From a virus: a stretch of 40,331 nucleotides of DNA. The stretch covers positions 1-40,331 of IMG/VR virus record IMGVR_UViG_3300009610_000053, one strand, 5' to 3'. A program made the position numbers and the translations under genes. Numbering within the stretch: the first letter of the stretch is position 1; each line of letters starts with the position of its first letter. Positions 4,042-35,178 of the stretch are shown here, piece by piece. The notes beneath the pieces were generated by a model, which did no database searches, had not been told where the DNA came from, and saw only the letters and a program-made list of their open reading frames with translations.

Positions 4042-5831
4042 AGCCCTATGGCCTCCCCCCAGTTATTGCCTACCCCTGATAGCTCAAGGATAAGGGGAAC
4101 CCGGCACCACGGAAAACCATCACGGACGGCTTCTTCTACCCGCTTCCAGACCGGCTGCCAATCTCGCGGGACTGACATACCGTAACTATCATGCGTATTG
4201 AGTAGCAGCGTACCTTCATCGCCTAGCGCCTGTTCGATCAGAACCCAGTTACGCTTATTGATATCGGCGGCTGTCGCCTGTACTGCCAAAGCCTGTGCCT
4301 TGTGATTGCTGACACCACTGGGGAAGCGCAACCGCCGCCCCATGTAGGTCTCCAAGTATCCGAATTTATTGGTTGTCGCACGGGCGCGTCTAGCAAACTC
4401 CCGAACGCCGGGAAGGATGCGATGATAACGCGCGATTATATCCGTTGCCTCTTTGCCAGCTTTCCGATAGCGGAAAACCTCTTTACCCTTCTTGAATTCA
4501 TCCCATTCCCACGGTAGCCCTAGCTTCATGGCTACTAGACCGTCCCCGCAACCCATAATCATAGAGAGGTTTAGCTCTTTGGCATTGGGCTGTCCCGCAT
4601 AGTGCGCCTTACGCGGCAACCCGGTTAGGTCTGCAACGTACTGGTGGAAATCCATAAGCGGATTGGCCTTAAACGCGGCCAGCAAATCGGTGTTGTTTAG
4701 TAGGTGGGCGAATGTGCGTACTTCAAAAGAGTGCATATCCGCGTCCATCCATACCTGCCCTTCTTCGGGTAGGAAAATGGGCTTAATGACACTGGCAATG
4801 TCTATGTTGCGGGAGGGTATTTGTTGCAGCGCCGGTTCTGTATAGGAGAATCGGCCCGTACCTGTGCCTCCATCCTCGCCTTTCGTCTGGTGGATTTTCG
4901 GGTACACTCGGCCATTGTGCGCGTTGCTCAGGATATGCCCTCTGAGGAACGTGTCGCGGGTCTTGGTCAGGCTGCGCGTTTCAAGGATGCCAAGGGCCAG
5001 GGAATCATTGATACGACGAAGGCTGTCAGCGCCGAAGCTCGGTTCCCCTCCGGGCGTAGCAGGCAGCGGTGTACCGTCCTGTGTGAACCATACTCCGTCA
5101 ATCTGGCGGGGCTTATACAGGGCCGCAACCTGCTTCGGGGAGTCTAGATTAAAGACGCACCCGGCTTCCTCAAATAGCTTGTTTTTGTGGCGGTCAATCT
5201 CCTGTGTCAATCGGTCAACGGCAACTTGGGCCGCTTCCTCATTGACTCGGATACCCCGCATTTCAGCCCGGATAATGGTAGGCATTACCGACTGTTCAAA
5301 TTCGATTATCTTTTCTATGCCCTGCTTGGCAATCCGTTCCTCTTGGTTCTGCCAAAGGTCATGGCACAGTTCCGCGTCAGGACGCGCGTAGGGTTCGACC
5401 ATTGACTTTGGCGCTTGCCAGATTCGGCCCGCCTGTGCTGACCGGGTAGGCTTGCCCCCGAACATGGCCGCTAGCTGTTCGTATATCTCGGACTGCTTTT
5501 TACGGCCAAGGTACTTCTCTCCCTGATTGTCTAGGGAGTAGCTGATTTCATGCTCATCTAGGAGCGTGGCGCGTATGACGGTATCTTGTATCCGCTCCAG
5601 AGGGAGCCGGACACCGGCATTGTAGCTCATGCGATAGTCATAGCTGGCGTTATGCGCGACTAGGGGAATCCCCCCAGTACGGTCTAGGACTTCTAAGAAT
5701 TCCCCGGCCCCATCTACTCGCAGGTCTATGTACCGGGATTCGTGCCCGGTAATTTGCCACGATATCCCTACTGCCCTATCTATCGGGCCTAGGCCGGTGG
5801 CCTCGGTATCAACGGCGAGAATGTCAGGCAT
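4038..5831 (-). CDS. polA-like: Family A DNA polymerase with 3'-5' exonuclease domain
   Basis: 597 residues, about the size of small phage PolA enzymes. The proofreading domain is intact: Exo I DTE (Asp8, Glu10), Exo II HNASYD (Asp65), Exo III YARPD (Asp152). The polymerase part has the TGRFS thumb signature (325-329) and QQIPSRN. Motif A ends ADMHSFEVR with catalytic Asp365. Motif B is AKELNLSMIMG with Lys418. Motif C is HDS with Asp548. Motif B is unusual: Leu422 and Met426 replace the Phe/Tyr762 and Tyr766 of E. coli Pol I, and Gln414 stands where Arg754 is expected. It is the replicative polymerase by context. ATG at 5831 has a GAGG site upstream; the stop overlaps the primase start. Confidence 0.93.
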   Translation of the reverse strand: MPDILAVDTEATGLGPIDRAVGISWQITGHESRYIDLRVDGAGEFLEVLDRTGGIPLVAHNASYDYRMSYNAGVRLPLERIQDTVIRATLLDEHEISYSLDNQGEKYLGRKKQSEIYEQLAAMFGGKPTRSAQAGRIWQAPKSMVEPYARPDAELCHDLWQNQEERIAKQGIEKIIEFEQSVMPTIIRAEMRGIRVNEEAAQVAVDRLTQEIDRHKNKLFEEAGCVFNLDSPKQVAALYKPRQIDGVWFTQDGTPLPATPGGEPSFGADSLRRINDSLALGILETRSLTKTRDTFLRGHILSNAHNGRVYPKIHQTKGEDGGTGTGRFSYTEPALQQIPSRNIDIASVIKPIFLPEEGQVWMDADMHSFEVRTFAHLLNNTDLLAAFKANPLMDFHQYVADLTGLPRKAHYAGQPNAKELNLSMIMGCGDGLVAMKLGLPWEWDEFKKGKEVFRYRKAGKEATDIIARYHRILPGVREFARRARATTNKFGYLETYMGRRLRFPSGVSNHKAQALAVQATAADINKRNWVLIEQALGDEGTLLLNTHDSYGMSVPRDWQPVWKRVEEAVRDGFPWCRVPLILELSGVGNNWGEAIGL

Positions 5832-5845
5832 GTAAACCCTCGGAG

Positions 5846-5874
5846 TAAAGACCCCGCCCCATGACAGGGCGGGG
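5846..5874 (-). terminator. GC-rich hairpin with short T run before polymerase gene
   Basis: Perfect 8-bp stem (5852-5859 with 5867-5874, all G/C) with a 7-base loop, followed on the minus strand by TCTTT. It lies between the SSB-like gene and the polymerase gene. It may be a partial terminator that lowers polymerase expression relative to the SSB-like protein. Confidence 0.5.
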
Positions 5875-10374: not shown

Positions 10375-10757
10375 GGTTCGACCTGCCGCCCTGCCGCGTC
10401 CTGCAAGTCAGCCGGGATGGGGGTTGCAACCGGGGGAGCGGGGTCGGCTTTGTCCACGGCCTCGGGGGCCGGTTCGGCTTCCACTCGCACAACCAAACCC
10501 TCCCCGGCTTTGGTGCTGACCCCGATATCCTTCATGTTCTGGAGGAATCCGGCCAGTCCTGCCGCTGCCGTTTCAAAGGGGTAATTCCTATCCATGAAAA
10601 CGTCCCGGAAAGGGTTGCCCGGATGCGGGTCGGGCTTCATTTCCTCGGTCACTTGCGCGATGAGGGAAACGCCTAGGCTGAATCGCTGCTTCGGGGACAG
10701 GCCCAAAGTGCTAATGACTTGGACAACAAATTCGGTGGGGTCAGGGATATCGTTCAC
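10371..10757 (-). CDS. Small early protein with Pro/Ala-rich tail
   Basis: 128 residues from a GTG at 10757 with an AGGAG site. Residues 1-75 are helical (VVQVISTLGLSPKQRFSLG, then an Asn-Pro-Phe-Arg-Asp-Val segment), and the last 40 are rich in Ala, Pro, Glu and Asp and likely disordered. The helical motif around LSPKQRF resembles that of the next gene. A candidate promoter is at 10872-10900 and a direct repeat lies in the leader. Confidence 0.68.
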   Translation of the reverse strand: MNDIPDPTEFVVQVISTLGLSPKQRFSLGVSLIAQVTEEMKPDPHPGNPFRDVFMDRNYPFETAAAGLAGFLQNMKDIGVSTKAGEGLVVRVEAEPAPEAVDKADPAPPVATPIPADLQDAAGRQVEP

Positions 10758-10783: not shown

Positions 10784-10827
10784 GGTTGGCACGGTTCTTG
10801 CATGGTGGCGGTTGGCACGATTCTTGC
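10784..10827. repeat. 18-bp direct repeat in early-gene leader
   Basis: GGTTGGCACGGTTCTTGC at 10784-10801 recurs at 10810-10827 with one mismatch and a 26-base period. It sits between the promoter candidate (10872-10900) and the start at 10757, so it is transcribed in the leader or bound as DNA by a regulator. Confidence 0.6.
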
Positions 10828-10871
10828 TTAACCGGAGGGTCGGGGTGCGGCTCGGCGGTTAAGCTAAGTTC

Positions 10872-10900
10872 AGGGTAGATCAGCGCGGGCCGGGTGTCAA
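10872..10900 (-). promoter_or_regulatory. Candidate sigma70-like promoter
   Basis: Minus strand TTGACA (10895-10900), 17-base spacer, TACCCT (10872-10877). The -35 is perfect; the -10 is weak (three of six). Its TTGACACC(C)GGC start is shared with the candidate at 11659. Confidence 0.38.
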
Positions 10901-10927: not shown

Positions 10928-11039
10928 CGCTGATGCCCCTCAGCGGCGTTTTAGGGTGAGGGGCGGCGTGTTGCCGCCCCTCGTTTGGCCGATAGATCAG
11001 GACTCGTCCTGCTACGGCAGCGTTGGTATTAGCTGCCGT
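10928..11039 (-). ncRNA. Structured untranslated element with four perfect hairpins
   Basis: Four hairpins follow one another in 112 bases downstream of the gene at 11054-11575. They are 11014-11021 with 11032-11039 (8 bp, 10-base loop), CAGGA/TCCTG near 10997-11011 (5-6 bp), 10958-10967 with 10973-10982 (10 bp, 5-base loop) and 10928-10933 with 10940-10945 (6 bp, 6-base loop). None is followed by a T run. It could be an RNA processing or stability element, a small RNA or a factor-dependent terminator. Transcription on the minus strand is assumed from the flanking genes. Confidence 0.5.
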
Positions 11040-11053
11040 ATCAGGCAGCTAGA

Positions 11054-11575
11054 TCAGGCTTCTTCGGCGGCGGCTTCCGGGGCGTCAGCCGGGGCCACTT
11101 CCGGGGCCAGCAGTTCGACCAGTTCCGCCAGTTCATCCAGACGGGCGGCGGTGGCATCATACTGGCCCTTCACGGCGGCGTAGATCAGATCATCGCCCTG
11201 TGCGGCCACGGATGCCTTGACTTCCCGGTAGCGGTTCCAGCCCGGAGGCTCGGACTTCGGGGCCGAATCATCCAGCGGGGAAGCATGGAGGATGCCACCG
11301 GCCAGATCATAGGCAATGACCTGATAGCCCATCACATCATCTTTTGCGGCCTCGGTCAGCTTGCAGCGCCAGAGGGTGACGAATGCCACGCCGTTGACTT
11401 CCTCGGCTACTACCAGCTTCCTGCCGGTCTCGCGGAACTGGCCGATACCGAACGAATCGCCACGGCCTTTCATCTGGTCGGCGGCGTACTCCTTCGGGGG
11501 CTGGCCGGGGTTGGGGCCGAATACTGCCAGCTTGGCAATCTGGAGGATTTGGGCGCGGGTCTTGGACTTGCTCAT
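11054..11575 (-). CDS. Early protein, unknown function
   Basis: 173 residues, ATG 11575 with AAGGAG site in a leader shared with several other early genes. A basic N-terminus (MSKSKTRAQILQIAKL) is followed by an alpha/beta-looking domain to about residue 130 and an Ala/Glu-rich acidic C-terminus (APEVAPADAPEAAAEEA). A promoter candidate lies at 11632-11659 and a four-hairpin element directly downstream. The isolated promoter and structured 3' end suggest that it is expressed as its own strong unit. The family is not recognised. Confidence 0.75.
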   Translation of the reverse strand: MSKSKTRAQILQIAKLAVFGPNPGQPPKEYAADQMKGRGDSFGIGQFRETGRKLVVAEEVNGVAFVTLWRCKLTEAAKDDVMGYQVIAYDLAGGILHASPLDDSAPKSEPPGWNRYREVKASVAAQGDDLIYAAVKGQYDATAARLDELAELVELLAPEVAPADAPEAAAEEA

Positions 11576-11631: not shown

Positions 11632-11659
11632 ATGGTAAGGGTATTTTAGCCGGTGTCAA
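11632..11659 (-). promoter_or_regulatory. Sigma70-like promoter
   Basis: Minus strand TTGACA (11654-11659), 16-base spacer, TACCAT (11632-11637, four of six). It lies 57 bases before the start at 11575 in the only AT-rich patch of this gap. Confidence 0.48.
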
Positions 11660-15034: not shown

Positions 15035-15838
15035 TCAGCCTCGGCTGGAGACCTTGGGGCGGTTAACGGTGGTGGTCTTGACCCCCTTGTACTCGTCGTG
15101 CTTCTTCACGGTGGCCCGGAGGGTAATGGTCTCGCCCTTCTCGCCTAGCTGGTTCCCGATATAGACCACGATATCTGAACCAACGCGCAGCTTGTTAATG
15201 AAGTAGGTCGAACCGTCAAATTCGGACACCTTCATGAAGCAGTAAAACAGGGTGCCGGTCAGGTCTAGCCGCTGGCCGACCGTGCCAACGTGGCAGGACA
15301 GCGCATCTACTTCGGCCTGAGCATCCCGGACGGCCTGACGGGCCGCGATATGACCAGCCTCCAAGGCGGCCCCGTAGCAAGCGGCGGCGAGGGCCTGAAT
15401 CACGGCATCGGCGGAGGGGTCTTTAGCCTTGTCAGCGAACCAAAGGAGATAGCTGGCCGGGGCTTCGCTGATCTTGGCCCCGCCATGCTTGCCAAAGGGA
15501 AACACGCCCGATTCGATGGTGGCGATTTGGTGCGTCTGACGGGCGGAGAGATTGCCCCGGCGCTTCATGGCCGTGTACTCCGATTCCGTGCAAAGGTTAA
15601 CCGTGATTCCCTGCCCCTCTTGGTGGCCCCGGATGCGGGCAACGTATTCCTCAGCCTTGGCGGCGGCCTTTACCGGGTCGGTGCTGAGGTTGCAGAGATA
15701 GAAATCCGGGGTGTACCAAGCGGAGACCGGGCCACCCTCCCGGAACATACGAAGGGTGTACATGGCATTCAGGCGGCCCGTGCTGACGTAATAGCAGAAG
15801 GTGAAGGGGGAGGTAGCGGCGAGGGTGGCGGTGGTCAT
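15035..15838 (-). CDS. Early protein with DUF3820-like motif
   Basis: 267 residues, ATG 15838 with AAAGGAAA upstream. Residues 112-137 (VFPFGKHGGAKISEAPASYLLWFADK) match the short FGK-H-x-G-x-x-[IL]...P-x-x-Y-L-x-W signature of DUF3820, a small module often linked to exonucleases and other DNA enzymes. The N-terminal third is unrecognised. The C-terminal 60 residues are beta-rich (SDIVVYIGNQLGEKGETITLR) and may form an OB-like barrel. A role in handling nucleic acid is plausible but only an inference. Both ends are flanked by the repeated two-tier hairpin. Confidence 0.73.
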   Translation of the reverse strand: MTTATLAATSPFTFCYYVSTGRLNAMYTLRMFREGGPVSAWYTPDFYLCNLSTDPVKAAAKAEEYVARIRGHQEGQGITVNLCTESEYTAMKRRGNLSARQTHQIATIESGVFPFGKHGGAKISEAPASYLLWFADKAKDPSADAVIQALAAACYGAALEAGHIAARQAVRDAQAEVDALSCHVGTVGQRLDLTGTLFYCFMKVSEFDGSTYFINKLRVGSDIVVYIGNQLGEKGETITLRATVKKHDEYKGVKTTTVNRPKVSSRG

Positions 15839-17284: not shown

Positions 17285-17617
17285 GCACGAACCGTGCCAA
17301 GCGTAAACCGCTTGACAGTGGGCGGCGGTCTGTGCTTGGGGGTGTGTTGGTGAGGTAGTACACCCGGCCCTGCCACAGTCGGCGGGCGGTGTCAAGCGGC
17401 GCGTAGGCGCTAGCACACTTCGGGGGTCGGTGTCATGTTGCGGTGCAGCATTGGAGCGCGTAGCACGGAACGGGGGCGGCTGTCATGTTGCAGCGCAGCA
17501 TAGGCCCCGGCTCGCCCATGTTGCAGCGCGTCAATACGCTACCGTCCTGCCCCCCTTCCGTCCCCCTTCCGTCCCATGCACGAACCATGCCAGCCCAAGG
17601 CCATGCACGTTCCATGC
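17285..17617. repeat. Three palindromic GCACG-N3-CRTGC sites
   Basis: GCACGAACCGTGC (17285-17297, perfect 5-bp arms), GCACGAACCATGC (17578-17590) and GCACGTTCCATGC (17605-17617). All three are preceded by CCAT and followed by CA. They look like binding sites for one dimeric regulator; the last two are 27 bases apart. Confidence 0.52.
17411..17510. repeat. 50-bp tandem repeat containing a palindrome
   Basis: Two copies begin with TAGCAC at 17411 and 17461. Each contains the near-palindrome ATGTTGC-N3-GCAGCAT (17435-17451 and 17485-17501) and a CGGGGG block. A half-site, ATGTTGCAGCGC, follows at 17518-17529. They are candidate iterons or operators. Confidence 0.6.
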
Positions 17618-17889
17618 CAACCGAAGGCCAAAGCAGACGGACGGTATGGCTAGGCCGACGAGCGGTCAGGAGGCGGTCTAGCGGCCTCTGAGACACGGTC
17701 GGCGGAGTAGGGCGGTATATAGGCGGAAAAACGACCCCCGACTGCTAGCTAGTATGACCCCCAACCTCGAAAAGAGAACCAAACAGAAAATCCGGGGTAA
17801 CTCCAACCCCCATTTTAACTACCCCTCCATCACCCCCATTCTGTCTCGCCACCAAATGAGACCCACCTAACCATGACCAATTCCAGACC

Positions 17890-26664: not shown

Positions 26665-27342
26665 ATGCCTGCAACCAATATGGCTGGCCCCCTAGTCGTA
26701 GCGGCCAATCCCACCCTTGGCAAGTTCGTTATGATGAGTGCTTTCAGTGGCCCGAAAGGCTCGCCGTTGGATGCCAAGCGTTTCAACCCAACCACGTTGG
26801 TCAAAGAGAATGACCCGACCAACTATTCCACGGGTGCGCTGAACACCGGAATCGGTATCGGCTGCAACCGGGTTATCAACGTGTCCATCGGTACTGCCCC
26901 GGCTACTGCGGTGCAGTCTATCAAGGACAGGGGCTATACGGATGATGTTATCCCCGGCATGAATTACAACACTCAGGCCGGTGGCGCTGCCTTGCAGACG
27001 GCCCCGGATGCAAGGCTGACCCTGATCGGTGGCGGTCGCAGTAACATTCTACCGGCTCCCGGTAATACTGGCTTTGGAGTGTCAACGCCTGTGCCGTGGA
27101 GTGCCGTGCCGTTGCTAGGGTGGGGCGCGGGCGGTTCGCGTGATGCTGGCGCTGGCCCTGCTTTCACTGGCTTCCCGGTCAAGATGGTTACGGCCACTGG
27201 CGCGGTTGCTGACGGTGCCGCAATCGAAGCCAACTGGCTGAACCGTTCTGGCATCGCAATGGTCGCCACTGAATCGGCCTTCGGTTCTGGCTCTGCTGCC
27301 TCGGTCGCTCCGACCGATGTAGAGGAAGAAGAAGAACCGTGA
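26665..27342 (+). CDS. Probable capsid decoration/cement protein
   Basis: 225 residues from ATG 26665 with a TAGGAG site. Gly-, Ala- and Thr-rich with many short strands (INVSIGTAPATAVQ, GGGRSNILPAPGNTG), no membrane segments, and an acidic tail (DVEEEEEP). Location directly after the major capsid gene and a beta-rich make-up fit an outer decoration or cement protein. No direct homology recalled. A strong terminator lies 16 bases after its stop, so the gene ends a transcription unit. Confidence 0.58.
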   Translation: MPATNMAGPLVVAANPTLGKFVMMSAFSGPKGSPLDAKRFNPTTLVKENDPTNYSTGALNTGIGIGCNRVINVSIGTAPATAVQSIKDRGYTDDVIPGMNYNTQAGGAALQTAPDARLTLIGGGRSNILPAPGNTGFGVSTPVPWSAVPLLGWGAGGSRDAGAGPAFTGFPVKMVTATGAVADGAAIEANWLNRSGIAMVATESAFGSGSAASVAPTDVEEEEEP

Positions 27343-27357
27343 TTGGTGTGGTAAGGG

Positions 27358-27395
27358 CATGGTGCCATAGGTCACAAGCCTAGGCACCATGTTTT
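27358..27395 (+). terminator. Rho-independent terminator after capsid gene cluster
   Basis: CATGGTGCC (27358-27366) pairs perfectly with GGCACCATG (27383-27391); inner TAGG/CCTA adds four pairs with one bulged A around a 7-base loop. TTTT follows at 27392-27395. A 13-bp stem is strong; it would lower expression of all downstream tail genes relative to capsid genes. Confidence 0.72.
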
Positions 27396-27407
27396 AAGGA
27401 GAGTGTC

Positions 27408-27653
27408 ATGAGCAAAACCGCCCTCGTATTATTGCTGGCTTGCGCTACCGCTATCGGTGGCTGCGAGACAGACGGCTCTACGGTTGTTGACATTCGGGTT
27501 TACCGGGACGTTATCGGCAACCTGATTGGTGAGAACCGGAAGTATTGTTTCTATCGTTTCCCGAATGGGCATAGGGAGAAGGTGTACCGTACCTACGGAT
27601 ACCGACACAACGCCTGCCCCCCGACCATCACTCGCAGGATGCGTACATTCTAA
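27408..27653 (+). CDS. Small secreted protein, possibly lipoprotein
   Basis: 81 residues, ATG 27408 with an AAGGAG site. A short signal (MSKTALVLLLACATAIGGC) ends in IGGC, a permissive lipobox with Cys19 as lipid site. The mature part is basic and Tyr/Arg-rich (DVIGNLIGENRKYCFYRFPNG), ending RRMRTF. A lipoprotein next to a small membrane protein could be part of a lysis or superinfection-exclusion pair; neither can be proven from sequence. Confidence 0.62.
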   Translation: MSKTALVLLLACATAIGGCETDGSTVVDIRVYRDVIGNLIGENRKYCFYRFPNGHREKVYRTYGYRHNACPPTITRRMRTF

Positions 27654-27663
27654 GGAAACTGTC

Positions 27664-27807
27664 ATGGATATGCTGCTTTTGATCTTGATGTTTGTCGGCT
27701 TCATCTGCCTGGTACTGGCAGCCTTCAATGTGGCGTTCAGTAGCCGTATCAATCTCGGCTGGCTCGGCGTTGCTTTTTTTGCATTGGTTGTCTTGCTTTC
27801 GCGCTGA
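27664..27807 (+). CDS. Small two-helix membrane protein, holin candidate
   Basis: 47 residues from ATG 27664 with an AAGGAA site. Two hydrophobic segments, 3-25 (MLLLILMFVGFICLVLAAF) and 32-45 (GWLGVAFFALVVLL), are joined by a short SSRIN turn. It lies immediately after a signal-peptide protein, with no endolysin gene in sight. Small class II holins look like this, but many phage membrane proteins do too. Confidence 0.58.
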   Translation: MDMLLLILMFVGFICLVLAAFNVAFSSRINLGWLGVAFFALVVLLSR

Positions 27808-27858
27808 GACAATCATAACTACTTGCGCGAATTCCCGCACCCCTTTCAGGAGTATTTT

Positions 27859-28431
27859 ATGACACATGGACAAGCAGACTTCGACGTTGAGGACTTCGAT
27901 CATCGCAACGCTGGCGATAAAAGCGTGTTCGTCAAGTTCTATATCCGGCCCTTCCAAGACGAAGCCAAATCGGTTGAGGAAGGTCGCCCCATCTTCAAGG
28001 ACAAAGAGTATGTCGAAATCCGTACCCCCGGCAACCAGACGAATATCGTCCAACGTCCGGTCACGGATATGGATAAGCAAAGGTTTCGCGCTGCGTATGC
28101 CGCTTTCAAAGCCGGTGACGCGGAGCAAATCATCGGCACTCCGCTCACGGAAACTCCGTGGATTACGCGCAGCCAAGCCGAGGAACTGGCCTACCTGCGA
28201 ATTCGTACCCTTGAGCAGCTAGCGAATGTGGGGGATGATGTTTGCACCCGTATCCCCGGCCTGTTCAAGCTGAAACAGCGGGCGCAGGCGGCGCTGGAAA
28301 GGGCAGAGAGAACTGCCCCCTTCCTCGCCATGCAGGCAGAGAATGAAGCCATGAAAAATCGCCTTGATACAATGGAAGCTACCATTGCCGATCAAGCTGC
28401 GATTATCAAGAGGCTTGAAAAGAAGGGGTAA
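27859..28431 (+). CDS. Conserved phage structural-module protein
   Basis: 190 residues from ATG 27859 with a CAGGAG site. The pattern VFVKFYIRPF, EGRPIFKDKEYVEIRTPGN, then RPVTDMDKQRFRAAYAAFK and GTPLTETPW, followed by LRIRTLEQLANVGDD, belongs to a family I recall as frequent in phage head-tail regions without a defined function. The C-terminus is a coiled coil (EAMKNRLDTMEATIADQA). It may be a minor virion or assembly protein. Confidence 0.75.
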   Translation: MTHGQADFDVEDFDHRNAGDKSVFVKFYIRPFQDEAKSVEEGRPIFKDKEYVEIRTPGNQTNIVQRPVTDMDKQRFRAAYAAFKAGDAEQIIGTPLTETPWITRSQAEELAYLRIRTLEQLANVGDDVCTRIPGLFKLKQRAQAALERAERTAPFLAMQAENEAMKNRLDTMEATIADQAAIIKRLEKKG

Positions 28432-28434
28432 GTC

Positions 28435-29163
28435 ATGGCCGTTCGGGCATCTGTGCTGACCATCGTAAATCAAGCCCTGCAAGAGATTGGTTTGCCGCAG
28501 GTGGAAACGACTATCTCTCCGTTCGACGATCAGACCGGGTTCCAAACGCTCGGTCTGGTCAACGCTTTGGGAACACAGCTTGTCAAGGGACACGATTGGC
28601 AGTTCCTTGAAAAATCACAGCAGTATATTGGGGATGGGATTGTGTCGGAATTTGACCTTCCCCCGGACTTCGGGCGCATAGTCAATCAGACCCAGTGGAC
28701 TTCAACCAATCGCCGCCCCATGTTTGGCCCCGTGTCTCCGCAGGGCTGGTCATGGGTTAAGAACGGTATTGTATCTGTCGGCGTGTATTACCGCTATCGG
28801 ATACTGGACAACAAGTTCCAAGTGTTTCCCATTCCTGCTCTCGGTGAGAAAATTGACTTTTACTATATCTCCCGCAACTGGGTCTTTGACCCGGATATCG
28901 CGCCTTCGGGGGGATACAAAGACAAGCTCACGAAGGACAATGATGAGCCTGTATTTGACAACTTTCTGATGTGCGCTGGAGTCAAATACAAGCTATGGGC
29001 TGCAAAGGGCATGGAAGCAGCAGAGCTTGGCCGTGAGTTTGAATACATGCTTACTGCCGAGAAAGGGCAGACCCAAGGTGCCCCCGTTATCTCGCTGAAC
29101 CGTCAGTGGGATTATCTCTACATTAGTGGTCAGAACGTACCGGACGGAAGCTGGAATGTTTAA
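28435..29163 (+). CDS. Head-tail adaptor / tail tubular A-like protein
   Basis: 242 residues. The N-terminal helices (VRASVLTIVNQALQEIGL), a central beta part with Trp-rich YYRYRILDNKFQVFPIPA and a helical C-terminus (NFLMCAGVKYKLWAAKGMEAA) match the adaptor class (T7 gp11-like, P22 gp4-like) that binds under the portal. Position after capsid genes and before the hub supports it. Confidence 0.75.
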   Translation: MAVRASVLTIVNQALQEIGLPQVETTISPFDDQTGFQTLGLVNALGTQLVKGHDWQFLEKSQQYIGDGIVSEFDLPPDFGRIVNQTQWTSTNRRPMFGPVSPQGWSWVKNGIVSVGVYYRYRILDNKFQVFPIPALGEKIDFYYISRNWVFDPDIAPSGGYKDKLTKDNDEPVFDNFLMCAGVKYKLWAAKGMEAAELGREFEYMLTAEKGQTQGAPVISLNRQWDYLYISGQNVPDGSWNV

Positions 29164-30769
29164 GGCAACGCTAGGGCCACAGAGAGTCAGTCAGGCGCTT
29201 GGCGTACAAGCGCCAACGGGCGGTCTTAACGATCTTGACCCCCTTTCCAACATGGGGCCGGAGTTCCTGATTGACGTAATGAATTTCTACCCTGATACTG
29301 GGGTGCTTTCCGTGCGCCCCGGCTATCAGGAATGGGCTACCGGCATGGGCGGCGCTGTAAGAACCATCATGCCATACAATGCCGCTGATGGTTCTGTTAA
29401 GATATTTGCCTCTACGGATGCAGCTATCTTTGACATTACTACCTCAATGGCTAACCCTCCTATCTCTGAGAATGACCGCGTTAATAGCAATGGCGCTTGG
29501 ATTGACACAAACTTTGCCAATGCTGCGGGGCAATTCTTGGTCGCAGTAAATGGCAAATCCGCTATCTATTATGACGGCACGGCATGGGGCAGCTTCCTAC
29601 CGAATATAGCCCCCGATGCTATCGGTGAGATTGGGGGCGGCGTTGACCCTAATGATTTCTCCTACGTTCTGGTGCATAAGGGACGGCTCTGGTTCATCGA
29701 AAAGAATACCATGACTGCATGGTATCTGCCGATTGATTCAATGGGCGGCGAAGCCAAACCGTTTTTTGTCGGTGGCCTATTCAAGCGCGGCGGGTATCTG
29801 ACCATGCTGGCTCGGTGGTCTGCGGATACGGGTGACGGTCTGGATGATCGCATAGTATTCATTACTTCGATGGGAGAGATTGCATCCTACTCCGGCAATG
29901 ACCCCGAAAATGCCGAGGATTGGTTCCTTGATTCCATCTGGTATATCGCGCCCCCTCTGAGCCTTCGTTCTGTTGCGGATTATGGCGGCGATATATTGTT
30001 CCTTAGCCGCCGGGGCCTAGTGCCGCTGTCCTCGCTGGTGACAAATAGCATCACGGAAATTCTGTATTCCAATACGCTAACCCGGCGTATCTCTCGCACC
30101 CTGATTAAGCTGGCCGCGCAGAGCGCACCCTATCCTATAGAAATAGCGGTTCACCCTGACTCTGCATGGGTGGTAATATCCCTTTTTGATACAAAGGCTC
30201 CTACCGAATTCGGTAGCTTCGGTATGCCGGTTCAACTGGTCATGAATTTCTTGACCGGCGCATGGGGCAAGTTTGATTATCCATGCCGGACTACCCGTAC
30301 CGTTGACCGCAATATTTTTCTCGGCGCAGATGGAAAGGTATTTGTTGTTACTCCTGATGCCTATAAAGATAATGTTCTGCTTGACGGCTCTGGCGGCGAC
30401 CCGATTGAGGCATATGCGTTCAGCGCGTATAGCTATCTTGAGAACCCAACGGCCAACAAACATGCCAAGCTGATTCGCCCGGTATTCCATACAGAAGTGA
30501 AGCCCTCGTTCCGTATGCGCGTCTTACCCGACTTCCGACTTGACCCGTACCTCACTACTCCATCCCCCGGTGTAGCCGCTGGCAATGCCAAATGGGATAT
30601 CGCAGAGTGGGACTTGGCTAACTGGGGCGGCTACGAGAACGTCTATCGCCCGTGGGTTTCAGCTAACGTACTGGGCTACGCATTTGCATGGCAGTTGCGC
30701 GTGTCCACTTCCTCATCCTTTGGAGTGGCAGCTTTGGAATGGGTGCATGAAGCGGGAGGCTTGGTATGA
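29156..30769 (+). CDS. Tail hub / beta-propeller-like head-completion protein
   Basis: 537 residues from ATG 29156, with a GGAAG site and an 8-base overlap with the adaptor gene. The start (GGLNDLDPLSNMGPEFLIDVMNFYP) and repeated beta blades (SAIYYDGTAWGSF, YVLVHKGRLWFIEKNT) resemble proteins like P22 gp10 and T7 gp12 that close the tail. It would form the tail hub that holds the fibre. No enzymatic motif seen. Confidence 0.72.
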   Translation: MFKATLGPQRVSQALGVQAPTGGLNDLDPLSNMGPEFLIDVMNFYPDTGVLSVRPGYQEWATGMGGAVRTIMPYNAADGSVKIFASTDAAIFDITTSMANPPISENDRVNSNGAWIDTNFANAAGQFLVAVNGKSAIYYDGTAWGSFLPNIAPDAIGEIGGGVDPNDFSYVLVHKGRLWFIEKNTMTAWYLPIDSMGGEAKPFFVGGLFKRGGYLTMLARWSADTGDGLDDRIVFITSMGEIASYSGNDPENAEDWFLDSIWYIAPPLSLRSVADYGGDILFLSRRGLVPLSSLVTNSITEILYSNTLTRRISRTLIKLAAQSAPYPIEIAVHPDSAWVVISLFDTKAPTEFGSFGMPVQLVMNFLTGAWGKFDYPCRTTRTVDRNIFLGADGKVFVVTPDAYKDNVLLDGSGGDPIEAYAFSAYSYLENPTANKHAKLIRPVFHTEVKPSFRMRVLPDFRLDPYLTTPSPGVAAGNAKWDIAEWDLANWGGYENVYRPWVSANVLGYAFAWQLRVSTSSSFGVAALEWVHEAGGLV

Positions 30770-31209
30770 GCCGCTGGATTAACAGTGACCCGAATAACCT
30801 TGCGACCCTTGCAAGTATCATGGATATCGTGCCTACGGAAAAGGCCGTATGCCTGCTGGAGTGCGAGGGAACCGAGGTCATTTGCGGAGCCTTGTTTGAC
30901 GGCTTCAACGGAGCTTCAATTCACGGGCATATCTGGATAGAGGAAGGCAGGGTTCCGTCGCGCTTATTCTGGTTCGCTATTTATGACTATCCTTTCCGCC
31001 AGTGTGGTGTGGATAACCTGATTGGTACGGTTGTATCCTTCAATGAGAAGGCACAGAAGTTGGTAGAACACTTGGGCTTTCGGCTCAACTCGGTTGTTCC
31101 GAAATACTACCCGAATGGCGCAGATATGATGCTGTATGTCTGCACAGTAGAAACCGCTGGCCGGTGGGAGAAGATTCGACCGGCAGGCGTCATGGTCAAG
31201 GAGAATTAA
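30766..31209 (+). CDS. GNAT-like virion protein
   Basis: 147 residues, start overlapping the hub stop (ATGA). The C-terminal part GTVVSFNEKAQKLVEHLGFRLNSVV has the N-x-x-A-x-x-[LV]-x-x-x-L-G-F pattern of GNAT acetyltransferases. Podoviruses such as T7 carry a GNAT-fold protein (internal virion protein gp13) just before their ejection proteins, which matches the position here. The acetyl-CoA loop (Q/R-x-x-G-x-G/A) is not obvious, so it is probably structural rather than catalytic. Confidence 0.78.
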   Translation: MSRWINSDPNNLATLASIMDIVPTEKAVCLLECEGTEVICGALFDGFNGASIHGHIWIEEGRVPSRLFWFAIYDYPFRQCGVDNLIGTVVSFNEKAQKLVEHLGFRLNSVVPKYYPNGADMMLYVCTVETAGRWEKIRPAGVMVKEN

Positions 31210-31210
31210 G

Positions 31211-32317
31211 ATGGGTGGCCTGTTTGGGAAGAAACCTAAAGCGCCTAAAATCCCTGACTATGTTCCGCTAGTCAAGAATCAGGCCGCAGAGCAGCAGCAA
31301 TTTTTGCAGAAGCAGACCGAGGCTAATCGCCCCGATCAAATGACTGCGTTTGGCTCGCTCAAATGGTCGCAAGACCCGGCTACTGGCCGCTGGACACAGA
31401 CCGAAGCCCTGAGTGCGCCACAGCAGGCCGCGCTTGACTCCGCGCAAGGGCTTCAAACGTCCATGTTTGACCGACTCAAGGGGCAGGCGGCGTGGGATGG
31501 TGGCCCTGCCATGCCTACCTATGATGAACTGTCCGGCGAAAAGCACGGTCAGCGGTTGGCCGAATCGCTTATGGCACGGGTACGGCCACAGCAGGCCGCA
31601 CAGCAATCGCAGATGCAGACCAAGCTACGCCTGCAAGGACTACAGCCGGGTACGGCGGCGTATGACCGTGCCTATCAGAACATGCTTACTTCGCATGGTG
31701 ACGTAGGCGCGCAAGCTGAACTGCAAGGCATGTTGGCAGGCGCGCAGGAATCGCGCGATATCTACAACACGCAACTGGGCGGTCAGCGGCAGGGCTATGA
31801 ACAGTCCATGCAGAACTATATGCTGCCTTGGCAGCAGGCTCAGGCCGCGCAAGGTCTTGTCGGCGGTGTCAAGACCCCCGGTTTCCAAGGCTTCAACACA
31901 GCCGGAGAGGCACAGGCGGCAGACGTTACCGGGGCCACTCAGCAGGGCTTCGCGCAGAAGGCACAGCTATACAATCAGCAGATGCAGTCGCGCGATGCCA
32001 AGATGAACTCTATGGCTTCTCTCGGTGGCGCTGCTATCAAGGCATCTGATATTGCACTCAAACAGGATATCGAACAGATCGCAGATGAAGCCGCATACAA
32101 TACCATGCTTTCCCTTATCCCGATTAGCTGGAAGTGGAAGGACACCAAACTGCCGGATGCTGGTATCTCCGCGCAGCAGGTATTTGACCTCGTTCCTGAG
32201 CTTGTATCCAAATCGGCAGATGGATTCTTGCAGGTCAACTACACCGGCTTGTTCGGCATACTGCTAGGTGCCTTCCGGCACATGGCTAAACAGGAGAGGG
32301 AACATGGCGTTCTATGA
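31211..32317 (+). CDS. Virion protein with C-terminal S74 chaperone-like domain
   Basis: 368 residues. The first 270 are Gln/Ala-rich and helical (e.g. RPQQAAQQSQMQTKLRLQG) and start with MGGLFGKK. Residues 279-360 fit an intramolecular chaperone (peptidase S74) domain: SDIALKQDIEQI with Ser279, Asp280 and Lys284, then SWKWKDTKLPDAGISAQQV, PELV and VNYTGLFGILLGAF. S74 domains release themselves by cleavage before that Ser-Asp after trimer folding of fibres. Here the domain is short (about 80 residues) and sits in an ejection/tail-type protein rather than in the main fibre. The next gene starts 14 bases before its stop. Confidence 0.75.
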   Translation: MGGLFGKKPKAPKIPDYVPLVKNQAAEQQQFLQKQTEANRPDQMTAFGSLKWSQDPATGRWTQTEALSAPQQAALDSAQGLQTSMFDRLKGQAAWDGGPAMPTYDELSGEKHGQRLAESLMARVRPQQAAQQSQMQTKLRLQGLQPGTAAYDRAYQNMLTSHGDVGAQAELQGMLAGAQESRDIYNTQLGGQRQGYEQSMQNYMLPWQQAQAAQGLVGGVKTPGFQGFNTAGEAQAADVTGATQQGFAQKAQLYNQQMQSRDAKMNSMASLGGAAIKASDIALKQDIEQIADEAAYNTMLSLIPISWKWKDTKLPDAGISAQQVFDLVPELVSKSADGFLQVNYTGLFGILLGAFRHMAKQEREHGVL

Positions 32318-32894
32318 CCAAGGTGGAATGGGCGAGCAGCCGATGGGCGGTGGGGGTGGCGCGGCTCGCAAGCCCCGCAAGGGTGGCTCGGCTGCGGCTG
32401 TGCCGGGGCAAATGACCAATACGGCCATGCCCGGCACTCAGCAACTTTCGGCTGTGCCGCAAGGGATGGAACAGGGTGCAAACTTTGCTCCAATGCCGGG
32501 GCAGGATGCCTCGGCACAGGCCATGCAGGGTAGCGTTGGTGGTTATGGCGGGCCAATGGGTTCGGGTACTCCCCTACCCGGTTTGCCACCTCAGCAGGGC
32601 GGTATGACTTTCCAGCCGGGGTTCCAGCAGACGCAAGACCCCGGTATGGCAGGCTCGTTAGGCGAGCAGCCGATGGGTACACCTTTGAACAAACCCGGTA
32701 AGCAGGGTGGCGCTGCTGCTACTCCTTCTCCCGGTGGCATTATGCCCCCCGGTAATCGCTTCGGTATGGGCGGTGGTATGGGCGGTGGTATGGGCGGTGG
32801 TATGGGCAGTCCAATTAGCCAGCGGCTCAAGGCAATGGCGCTCCGTAACCGGGGCAAGATGGGTGGCGGAATGATGGGCGGTGGAGGGTACTGA
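32304..32894 (+). CDS. Gly/Met-rich low-complexity virion-module protein
   Basis: 196 residues, ATG 32304 with a GGAG site. Dominated by Gly, Met, Pro and Gln, with DQGGMGEQPMGGGGG near the start and GMGGGMGGGMGGGMGS followed by a basic segment (PISQRLKAMALRNRGK) and GGGMMGGGGY at the end. The GGT-ATG-GGC-GGT nucleotide repeats around 32765-32810 make this stretch prone to expansion. Probably a flexible virion or ejection component; no fold. Confidence 0.7.
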   Translation: MAFYDQGGMGEQPMGGGGGAARKPRKGGSAAAVPGQMTNTAMPGTQQLSAVPQGMEQGANFAPMPGQDASAQAMQGSVGGYGGPMGSGTPLPGLPPQQGGMTFQPGFQQTQDPGMAGSLGEQPMGTPLNKPGKQGGAAATPSPGGIMPPGNRFGMGGGMGGGMGGGMGSPISQRLKAMALRNRGKMGGGMMGGGGY

Positions 32895-32895
32895 A

Positions 32896-35178
32896 ATGGC
32901 ATACAATCCTTTCATGCTGGAAGAACTGTCTCCGAGTGCTGCCGATATCAAGAAGCGGCAGCGCCTTGCAAAAGCCTTGCGGGAAGCGCAGGGTGAGTTC
33001 AAGGACGTTCGGACGGTAAAGACCCCGGAGCTACAGCGTTCTGTGCATGGCGGATTGTTTGATACCGTACCCATGTACGCGCCTAAGTCCACACTGGGCA
33101 CAATCGCAGAAGTTGGCGGCGGCCTTCTCGGTGAATACTTGACTGGTAAAAAGGCCAAGAAAGCCGAGGAAGATTACGATACGGCTATGACGGAAGGCGC
33201 TATCAGGGCCAGTCAGCAGATTGGCGCTGACGGGTTGCCGGTCAGTCAGCCTGCTCAGGGTTTCATGAGTCAGGGCCGTATGGGTAAGGGGCTTGAAGCG
33301 GCTGGCTTCCCGGCCACTGGCGCTCCCCCTGCTGGCACAATGACAGGAGGGCCGGAGGCTGCTACTGCTCCTGCCCCCTTTCAGGAAAAGGGCGGCGGGT
33401 TGGCTGAGGAATTGGCTGGCGCCGACTTAGGCATTGAAGCCCTAGACGCATTGGCCTTGTATGAGGGCGACCGTGGCCGCGCTCTGGATGATAACCAGAT
33501 GCGCGAATTCCTGCATACCGGGAAGGTGAAAACTCCCGACTCACCGGAAGCGCCCCCTGCTCCCCCGCGTAATCAGGATGAACTTGCCGCTTATCTCGGT
33601 ATCGGCTCGGGCCAGAATCCAACGGTCATGCCGGAGCCTGCTGCACCACAGCCGGTCAAGATGAACATTGCAGGACTTTCCCCTGAGCAAAATCAGAGGC
33701 TTGGACAGGCGGTTGCGGCGCTAGAAACTCAGAACCTTCCACCGGCTGAGTTTGAGAAGAAATTCAAGGAGGCTATGGCTGCGGAAATGATGCAGGGCGC
33801 ACCCCCGGAAGCGGTCGCTCAGGCACAGGCCGCTGGCACTACCTCGCTGCCAGTTCCCGGCGCGGCTGACCCTTTGGCGGGTATTCAGGCTGCGGCTCCG
33901 GCTCCACCGGCTGAACCGAGTGGAGCGGCTACCGATATCAATGCTATGCTCGGCATGGCTCCCCAAGGTGGCGGCGGTGGCGCTCCTATGGCTGGCCCCG
34001 AAGGCACAGTTCCAAATGAGCAAGCTCTACGCGCCTATCTCGGCCTGATTGGCGAGGAAGGCGCAACCGGCCTTATCGGCAAGGCTCCGCATGTATCGTC
34101 CAAGTCCATTCTTTCGGACAAGTCAATCGTCCTGCATATGTCTGATGGTTCCATGCGTCATACTGGCCGGAAAGCCATTCATGACGGCACGAATTATCGG
34201 GATGATTTGACCGGCGAGATTATCAATGTGTCTGGTGGCGTTGCTTCCAAGGTAACGGAAGGCCAGCCGGATACAACTACCGACCCGAATACGCTCCAGC
34301 CTAATCAGCCTCAGCCTCCGGCTCCCCCGGCGGCTCAGACACAGGCTCCGGCAGTCACTCCCTCGGCTCCGGCTGTCGCGGGTGGCCCTACTCCATCCAT
34401 GACGGACGGCGTATCTGCCCCCATGACTGGCGGCCCTCCGGTGCCTCCGACTCCGGCTGCTACGACTGGGGCAGCGCCTATCAGAATGAGTACCGCCGCG
34501 CAAGTGGAATTTGCAAAGAAGAACGCTCAAATTACGGCAGAACTCGGGCAGGCCGAAGGGCTTGCTTGGGCCGCTGGTACAAAGGCTGCTGCGGAGGCGG
34601 AAGCCAAAGGCGATATCGAATTCCGGCAGTTTGCTCGGGATGCGTTGCCGAAGATGGATATGGGTCTGGATAGGCTGAACAAGGATATCCCGGCCCTAGT
34701 CAATCATCCCGGCCTGCCGGTGATTGTCGGCAAGGGCGTGTGGGCCAAACTGGGTAACGTCCCATTCAAGGACTTGGTGCATGATATTGGTCTATCCAAT
34801 ACTGCTGCCGCTGACGCTTTGGCAAGGCTGGAGCAGATGAAGGGCCAAGTGTTCTTGCCTGCCTTTGAGTATATCAAAGGTGGTGGTCAAGTTACCAATC
34901 TTGAGGGCGATAAAGCGCAGAACGCTATGGCTCGTATGAGCAGGGCGCAGACCGTTGAAGCCTTTACGGAAGGTATGAGAGACTTCCACCAAGCCTATAT
35001 TGATGCTCGGCAGAAGCGTTGGGAGATTGCACAGGGCAAGTATGATTTGAGGCAGTTCCGTCCCGGCGGTGAAAAGAGCGGGGCGATTGCTCCGGTAACG
35101 AATCCACTTGATAAGCCGCCAGCGCCCCCGGTAAGTGATGCAGAATTTGAAGATGCAATGAAGCTGTTCGGAGGCTAA
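32896..35178 (+). CDS. Large Pro/Ala-rich ejection-type virion protein
   Basis: 760 residues, ATG 32896 with GGAGG site. Long Pro/Ala/Gln-rich stretches (for example PAPPAAQTQAPAVTPSAP near 480-500) are separated by folded parts: residues 1-60, a mid segment DKSIVLHMSDGSMRHTGRKA, and a helical C-terminus from about 540 (FAKKNAQITAELGQAEGLAW, then MDMGLDRLNKDIPALVNHPGLP). The C-terminal helical domain fits internal or ejected virion proteins that lead DNA into the cell. No lysozyme or transglycosylase motif is recognisable by eye. Confidence 0.68.
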   Translation: MAYNPFMLEELSPSAADIKKRQRLAKALREAQGEFKDVRTVKTPELQRSVHGGLFDTVPMYAPKSTLGTIAEVGGGLLGEYLTGKKAKKAEEDYDTAMTEGAIRASQQIGADGLPVSQPAQGFMSQGRMGKGLEAAGFPATGAPPAGTMTGGPEAATAPAPFQEKGGGLAEELAGADLGIEALDALALYEGDRGRALDDNQMREFLHTGKVKTPDSPEAPPAPPRNQDELAAYLGIGSGQNPTVMPEPAAPQPVKMNIAGLSPEQNQRLGQAVAALETQNLPPAEFEKKFKEAMAAEMMQGAPPEAVAQAQAAGTTSLPVPGAADPLAGIQAAAPAPPAEPSGAATDINAMLGMAPQGGGGGAPMAGPEGTVPNEQALRAYLGLIGEEGATGLIGKAPHVSSKSILSDKSIVLHMSDGSMRHTGRKAIHDGTNYRDDLTGEIINVSGGVASKVTEGQPDTTTDPNTLQPNQPQPPAPPAAQTQAPAVTPSAPAVAGGPTPSMTDGVSAPMTGGPPVPPTPAATTGAAPIRMSTAAQVEFAKKNAQITAELGQAEGLAWAAGTKAAAEAEAKGDIEFRQFARDALPKMDMGLDRLNKDIPALVNHPGLPVIVGKGVWAKLGNVPFKDLVHDIGLSNTAAADALARLEQMKGQVFLPAFEYIKGGGQVTNLEGDKAQNAMARMSRAQTVEAFTEGMRDFHQAYIDARQKRWEIAQGKYDLRQFRPGGEKSGAIAPVTNPLDKPPAPPVSDAEFEDAMKLFGG

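Follow-up and report, generated by a model that had tools for sequence, protein, structure and literature searches.

Introduction

To our knowledge, the structured RNAs of phages are thinly catalogued. Among the described systems closest to the locus reported here, the attenuators of amino-acid operons consist of RNA arms that pair as 1:2, 2:3, and 3:4 beside a stop codon. Intercistronic and 3′-end stabilising hairpins, including those of the REP type, are strong, lie between genes, and carry no U run. The put RNAs of phage HK022 are ∼70 nt in length, contain two stem-loops in which bulges are important, and are found in early phage transcripts, putR being located ∼270 nt from its promoter (PMC9378689). 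Small RNAs derived from 3′ UTRs or encoded by phages are likewise known (PMC12197685, PMC13250501).

Genomic Setting of the Hairpin Region

The window, i.e., the whole stretch of DNA analyzed, is a virus record of 40,331 bases, in which the leftward early half encodes helicase, DNA polymerase, and primase, and the rightward late half encodes terminase, portal, and major head protein. No DNA-level match to any named phage was found for the first 25 kb of the window, and the closest named phage by protein was Stenotrophomonas phage BUCT555 (portal 52%, helicase 47%). The hairpin region is situated between two leftward genes, P0001 (11054-11575) and P0002 (10371-10757). The sequence-only reading, which had described four consecutive hairpins, placed them in an untranslated stretch, and indeed no convincing ORF was found on the coding minus strand between the P0001 stop at 11054 and the P0002 start at 10757. 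Since both flanking genes lie on the minus strand, the feature reads as a 3′ UTR of P0001 and, from this arrangement, is most likely transcribed as minus-strand RNA.

P0001 (11054..11575, minus strand) is an ORF for a 173-aa early protein of an orphan family, with homologues in five relatives (48-53% identity) and no Pfam or PHROG match. A sigma-70-like promoter for P0001 (TTGACA-16-TACCAT; 11632..11659, minus strand) was obtained from a consensus scan as a consensus match only, and TTGACA boxes of similar kind were seen at the equivalent place in L002, L004, and L026. The protein has an acidic C-terminal tail, and its predicted fold is a four-stranded sheet with long helices, at moderate confidence (pLDDT 70.9). 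A known single-strand DNA-binding protein, suspected from the acidic tail, was rejected as no family, PDB sequence, or significant fold match was found. Upstream of P0002, a second sigma-70-like promoter (TTGACA-17-TACCCT; 10872..10900, minus strand) was read from the sequence and is absent from the stricter consensus scan. Just downstream of this promoter-like site, and beside a tandem sigma-54-like motif, lies a perfect 9-bp inverted repeat, GCTTAACCG/CGGTTAAGC (10826-10834 and 10856-10864). Elsewhere in the window, an early protein encoded at 15035-15838 (minus strand) showed a short match to Pfam QSregVF_b (PF12843, E 2.3e-05) and otherwise belongs to an unnamed phage family.

Hairpins and Folding Statistics

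All four consecutive stems of the sequence-only reading are present in the sequence. In plus-strand coordinates, stem (i) pairs 11013-11021 with 11032-11040 (9 bp, loop of 10 nt), stem (ii) 10998-11002 with 11007-11011 (5 bp, loop of 4), stem (iii), here termed hairpin C, 10958-10967 with 10973-10982 (10 bp, loop of 5), and stem (iv) 10928-10933 with 10940-10945 (6 bp, loop of 6; 10928..10945 on the minus strand). The lengths given earlier (8, 5-6, 10, and 6 bp) agree with these except for the first stem, which has 9 bp and not 8; the loops, described as short throughout, are of 4, 5, and 6 nt in the other three, but the 10-nt loop of the first is not short. As had been noted, no T run follows any of the four stems on either strand.

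The 171-nt region gave folding z-scores of -4.08 (plus strand) and -3.96 (minus strand), with 0/200 shuffles equally stable on either strand, and for the 99-nt homologous core, the values were -7.05 (minus strand) and -4.61 (plus strand). The raw folding energy is not unique in this GC-rich genome, ranking ∼10 of 1437 windows along the minus strand. The hairpins were confirmed as real and as exceeding chance.

Occurrence of the Element in Related Phages

Viral contigs were searched from the helicase and from P0001, and five other distinct elements were obtained, making six with that of the window. Extracts were grouped by contig as L016 (L002), L017 (L028), L019 (L003, L004, L020), L021 (L022, L025), and L026; the comparative set is thus six sequences from one clade, two of them nearly identical. 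In all six, the element is found directly after the stop codon of the P0001 homologue. The core, GCYGCCKUAGC...CUANNGGCCAAAC, is almost invariant despite surrounding genes that align at ∼65-80% at the DNA level where they are alignable at all. The gene behind the element differs between clades, and in the window, no gene follows hairpin C before the next promoter-like site; hence, it is P0001 that the element accompanies, rather than the gene that follows.

The R1 covariance model, built on five sequences, returned a single strong copy per record for five records, not the many copies per genome typical of REP elements. The collections were scanned with exact patterns or peptide words, and absence elsewhere holds at that sensitivity, at which no bacterial genome, plasmid, or named phage was found to carry a copy of P0001. 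BUCT555, the closest of the named phages, has no detectable P0001 and no convincing element, and the same was observed in more distant helicase relatives. At the sensitivity used, the element is confined to phages with a P0001 gene. Pattern matches in L012, L048, and L039-L046 were considered as distant copies and rejected, as they scored 11.8-25.7 bits where the true copies reach 54.9-64.4. The eight inspected lack the fold of the element, most of them lying inside open frames, and the matches were accordingly attributed to chance.

Two assembly features were observed among these contigs. In L018 (∼5470-5584), the P0001 homologue gives way to unrelated sequence where the contig ends; this contig may be a chimeric assembly and was omitted from the element set. 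The 16-mer TTGGCACGATACGTGC is present near both ends of one contig (L002 43-58 and, in its contig G001, 41046-41061), suggestive of either a direct terminal repeat or a circular assembly.

Architecture and Two Predicted Competing Folds

Read along the sense (minus) strand, the stop codon is followed by arm 1, arm 2, a loop, arm 3, stem B, arm 4, CAAAC, and finally hairpin C. Arm 1 (UAGCUGCC; 11044..11051) begins 2 nt past the stop codon. Arm 2 (UACGGCAGCUA; 11030..11040) has either arm 1 or arm 3 as partner. Arm 3 (GCUGCCGUAG; 11012..11021), which is nearly invariant, has either arm 2 or arm 4. Stem B (CAGGA-CGAG-UCCUG; 10998..11011) has 5 bp and a YNMG-type tetraloop, and its 5′ half can alternatively pair with arm 1. 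Arm 4 (CUAUCGGC; 10988..10995) pairs with arm 3 around stem B, leaving one bulged base, and forms with the linker the conserved motif CUAUCGGCCAAAC (10983..10995), identical or nearly so in 6/6 sequences. Hairpin C (10958..10982) closes the element with 10 bp and a 5-nt loop and is not followed by a U run.

From these arms, the RNA element is apparently able to fold in two competing ways, each possible in all six sequences. The rod joins arm 2 to arm 3 and arm 1, with its surroundings (CCUG), to the 5′ half of stem B; between the rod and hairpin C, the 13-nt motif CUAWCGGCCAAAC stays single-stranded. The two-hairpin fold consists of helix 1:2 and of a second hairpin in which arm 3 (GCCKUAG) and arm 4 (CUA-N-MGGC) pair and enclose stem B, with an identical bulge kept and YNMG-type loops CGAG, UGCG, and CACG. 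Because arms 3 and 4 close a hairpin around B, this fold hides part of the CUAWCGGCCAAAC motif. The earlier bounds cut the element, as arm 1 (11044-11051), a rival for the bases of stem (i), falls outside them. The sequence-only reading had offered a phage small RNA, a nuclease-resistant 3′ end, or a protein-binding RNA array; an array of independent hairpins fits less well than a single composite element with two alternative folds.

Evidence for Pairing

Pairing was counted per cell and double changes relative to the window, with the arms aligned by hand. Hairpin C kept 40/40 inner pairs with 16 double changes, and stem B was paired in 19/20 cells with seven. The two rod helices were paired in 20/20 and 30/30 cells (five and seven double changes) and helix 1:2 in 29/30 cells (eight). 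Helix 3:4 was paired in 35/35 cells with a single double change, one base pair in L026 being swapped from G-C to U-A. In a tool count on a MAFFT alignment, the 3-B-4 fold paired in 50/50 cells vs. 20-44% for slid partners. As most of the hairpins are kept by base-pair swaps in related phages, the feature is regarded as a real RNA element. A lack of conservation of the pairings in relatives had been named as refuting the sequence-only reading; when this test was run, three of the four stems were found to be kept. Stem (iv) was seen in the window only and was rejected as part of the conserved element; the relatives have the Shine-Dalgarno of the next gene close behind hairpin C.

The strength of the rod was reached in 2, 0, 14, 8, and 1 of 1000 shuffles that preserved the two-hairpin pairs, and that of helix 1:2 in 5, 10, 187, 28, and 20 of 1000 shuffles that preserved the rod pairs. 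The two-hairpin fold alone does not account for the rod, and the converse is weaker; by these pair-preserving shuffles, the rod and helix 1:2 are supported separately. The energy of 3-B-4 was not exceptional in shuffles preserving the rod pairs, and its support comes from its uniform shape, YNMG loop, and pair changes. A hairpin of at least 3 bp with a YNMG loop arose in 0.8-5.2% of shuffles of each B sequence. The five-sequence permutation test has a floor of ∼1 in 120, raised by identical arms. Mutually exclusive helices are kept in the relatives, with weaker evidence for 3:4. The predicted balance between the folds varies among relatives, L016 and L026 strongly favoring the rod.

Strand of the Element

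The sense z-score was below the antisense score in 6/6 sequences, several of the base pairs are G-U, and YNMG-type loops are obtained when the sequence is read in the sense direction. Taken together, these observations favor an RNA transcribed from the minus strand. They stand against a DNA-level element, such as a palindromic protein-binding or replication site, and against a plus-strand RNA from the tandem sigma-54-like boxes at 10786 and 10812. Inverted repeats are present on both strands, the plus strand also beats its shuffles, and the two boxes are exact and point into the region; however, none was seen near the element in the relatives searched, and a DNA-level or plus-strand origin is considered very improbable. 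The plus-strand transcript from the tandem boxes was rejected on this ground, the boxes being exact in the window and missing beside the element in relatives.

The repeated motif of these boxes, TTGGCAYGnnnC[GT]TGC, fits the -24/-12 spacing of sigma-54 and is nearly palindromic (GCAYGnnnCRTGC). Copies are located at 10784-10827 (plus strand), at 17285-17302, 17578-17595, and ∼17605-17620 (minus strand), at L002 44, and at L025 2345. Two copies 26 bp apart lie in the P0002 5′ UTR, with three others at the start of the leftward early genes; the motif could be a promoter or an operator.

Comparison With Terminators and Known RNA Families

Hairpin C has the GC hairpin of an intrinsic (Rho-independent) terminator. 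A U run directly behind it is absent in 6/6 sequences, and the terminator scan does not list it; a U-tailed terminator is excluded as the sequence has no U run. The suggestion of the sequence-only reading that the RNA is other than a simple terminator is supported. Searches for Rfam 15 families, tRNA, and tmRNA (covariance models at gathering threshold; ARAGORN) returned nothing beyond weak chance-level matches (E 0.31-4.3), and the element was not assigned to any of these classes, no match having reached threshold.

Like stabilising hairpins including those of the REP type, the strong hairpins of the element lie between genes and lack a U run, and in the relatives, they are near a Shine-Dalgarno. 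Unlike them, the element is single-copy and has sequence motifs, a YNMG-type loop, and alternative folds.

Comparison With Attenuators

The layout of arms pairing 1:2, 2:3, and 3:4 next to a stop codon is shared with the amino-acid operon attenuators, and arm 1 begins 2-3 nt past the stop codon in 5/6 sequences. A ribosome at the P0001 stop could accordingly cover arm 1, flip the fold, and couple P0001 translation to downstream expression; hiding 9-13 nt in the window changes the predicted 3:4 pairing from 0.88 to 0.01. However, the predicted effect is reversed in L017 and L019, and the rod wins throughout in L016 and L026. As hiding arm 1 is predicted to act in differing directions among relatives, the attenuator is weakened, and a uniform ribosome-sensing switch was rejected for these conflicting predictions. 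Moreover, helix 3:4 is not a terminator, having no U run, and the window has no gene directly behind the element. The switching arms include neither hairpin C nor the Shine-Dalgarno behind it, and no terminator or masked ribosome-binding site arises in either fold. The element thus differs from the operon attenuators in following a full-length gene, in lacking a U-run terminator, and in its non-uniform predicted ribosome effect, and we regard ribosome sensing as quite improbable.

Comparison With Put RNAs

In one of its two folds, the element resembles the HK022 put RNAs, which also have two stem-loops in ∼70 nt of early phage transcript (PMC9378689). The two-hairpin core measures ∼65-75 nt and is located ∼550-600 nt behind the P0001 promoter. 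By analogy, it might bind the transcribing RNA polymerase and allow read-through of downstream early terminators. On the other hand, R1, the only model used, had no match in the 6 kb part of HK022 scanned (27000-33000), and the element is single-copy and lies inside the early region rather than at its start. Its position behind a coding gene, single copy, alternative rod, and conserved CUAWCGGCCAAAC also set it apart from put, and such an antitermination role appears improbable.

Proposed Function and Small-RNA Reading

We tentatively propose, as the leading candidate although at less than even probability, that the element is a cis-acting structured RNA of ∼100 nt with two exclusive folds in the P0001 3′ UTR, which would set the processing or stability of the message. 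Comparison among the relatives establishes its position, the conservation of both pairing sets, its single copy, and its linkage to P0001. As a boundary element, it would determine the separation of the P0001 message from the downstream RNA and the lifetime of the message. Flanking the exposed CUAWCGGCCAAAC, the rod and hairpin C would act as barriers to exonucleases, and this motif would be the regulated site, acted on by a nuclease or regulatory protein; the two-hairpin fold would mask it.

The same exposed motif could also serve a different purpose, the 3′ UTR being processed to a stable trans-acting small RNA with CUAWCGGCCAAAC as the seed between protective hairpins. The rod leaves the most highly conserved bases unpaired, and 3′-UTR-derived and phage-encoded small RNAs provide precedent (PMC12197685, PMC13250501), with which the element has in common a structured 3′ UTR and a conserved exposed motif. 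It differs from them (PMC13250501, PMC12197685) in that it is not known to have a terminator, a processed species, or a target. A U-run 3′ end and a separate promoter were not seen, and the phage shows no excess of sites that could pair with the motif (four with at most two mismatches vs. 1.64 expected, the element itself included). A small RNA is considered rather unlikely.

A bolder extension of the cis-acting element, to which we give a low probability, is a new two-state RNA family, in which the 3′ end of the phage message alternates between a rod resistant to nucleases and a protein-binding, YNMG-capped hairpin, the gene thereby controlling its own message or downstream transcription. The protein bound by the YNMG-capped hairpin would perhaps be P0001 itself or the host RNA polymerase. 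If true, the switch would be an unusual case of 3′-UTR-based control in a phage. The element is so far undescribed; it has comparative support and remains linked to an orphan early gene despite exchange of the genes that follow, and its two folds and one exposed motif give concrete, testable predictions.

A further GC hairpin that carries no U run (GTGCCCCCGGAAGGGGGCAT) was observed in L026 (∼5800-5850), just ahead of a Shine-Dalgarno, and phages of this group may use such GC hairpins between several early genes.
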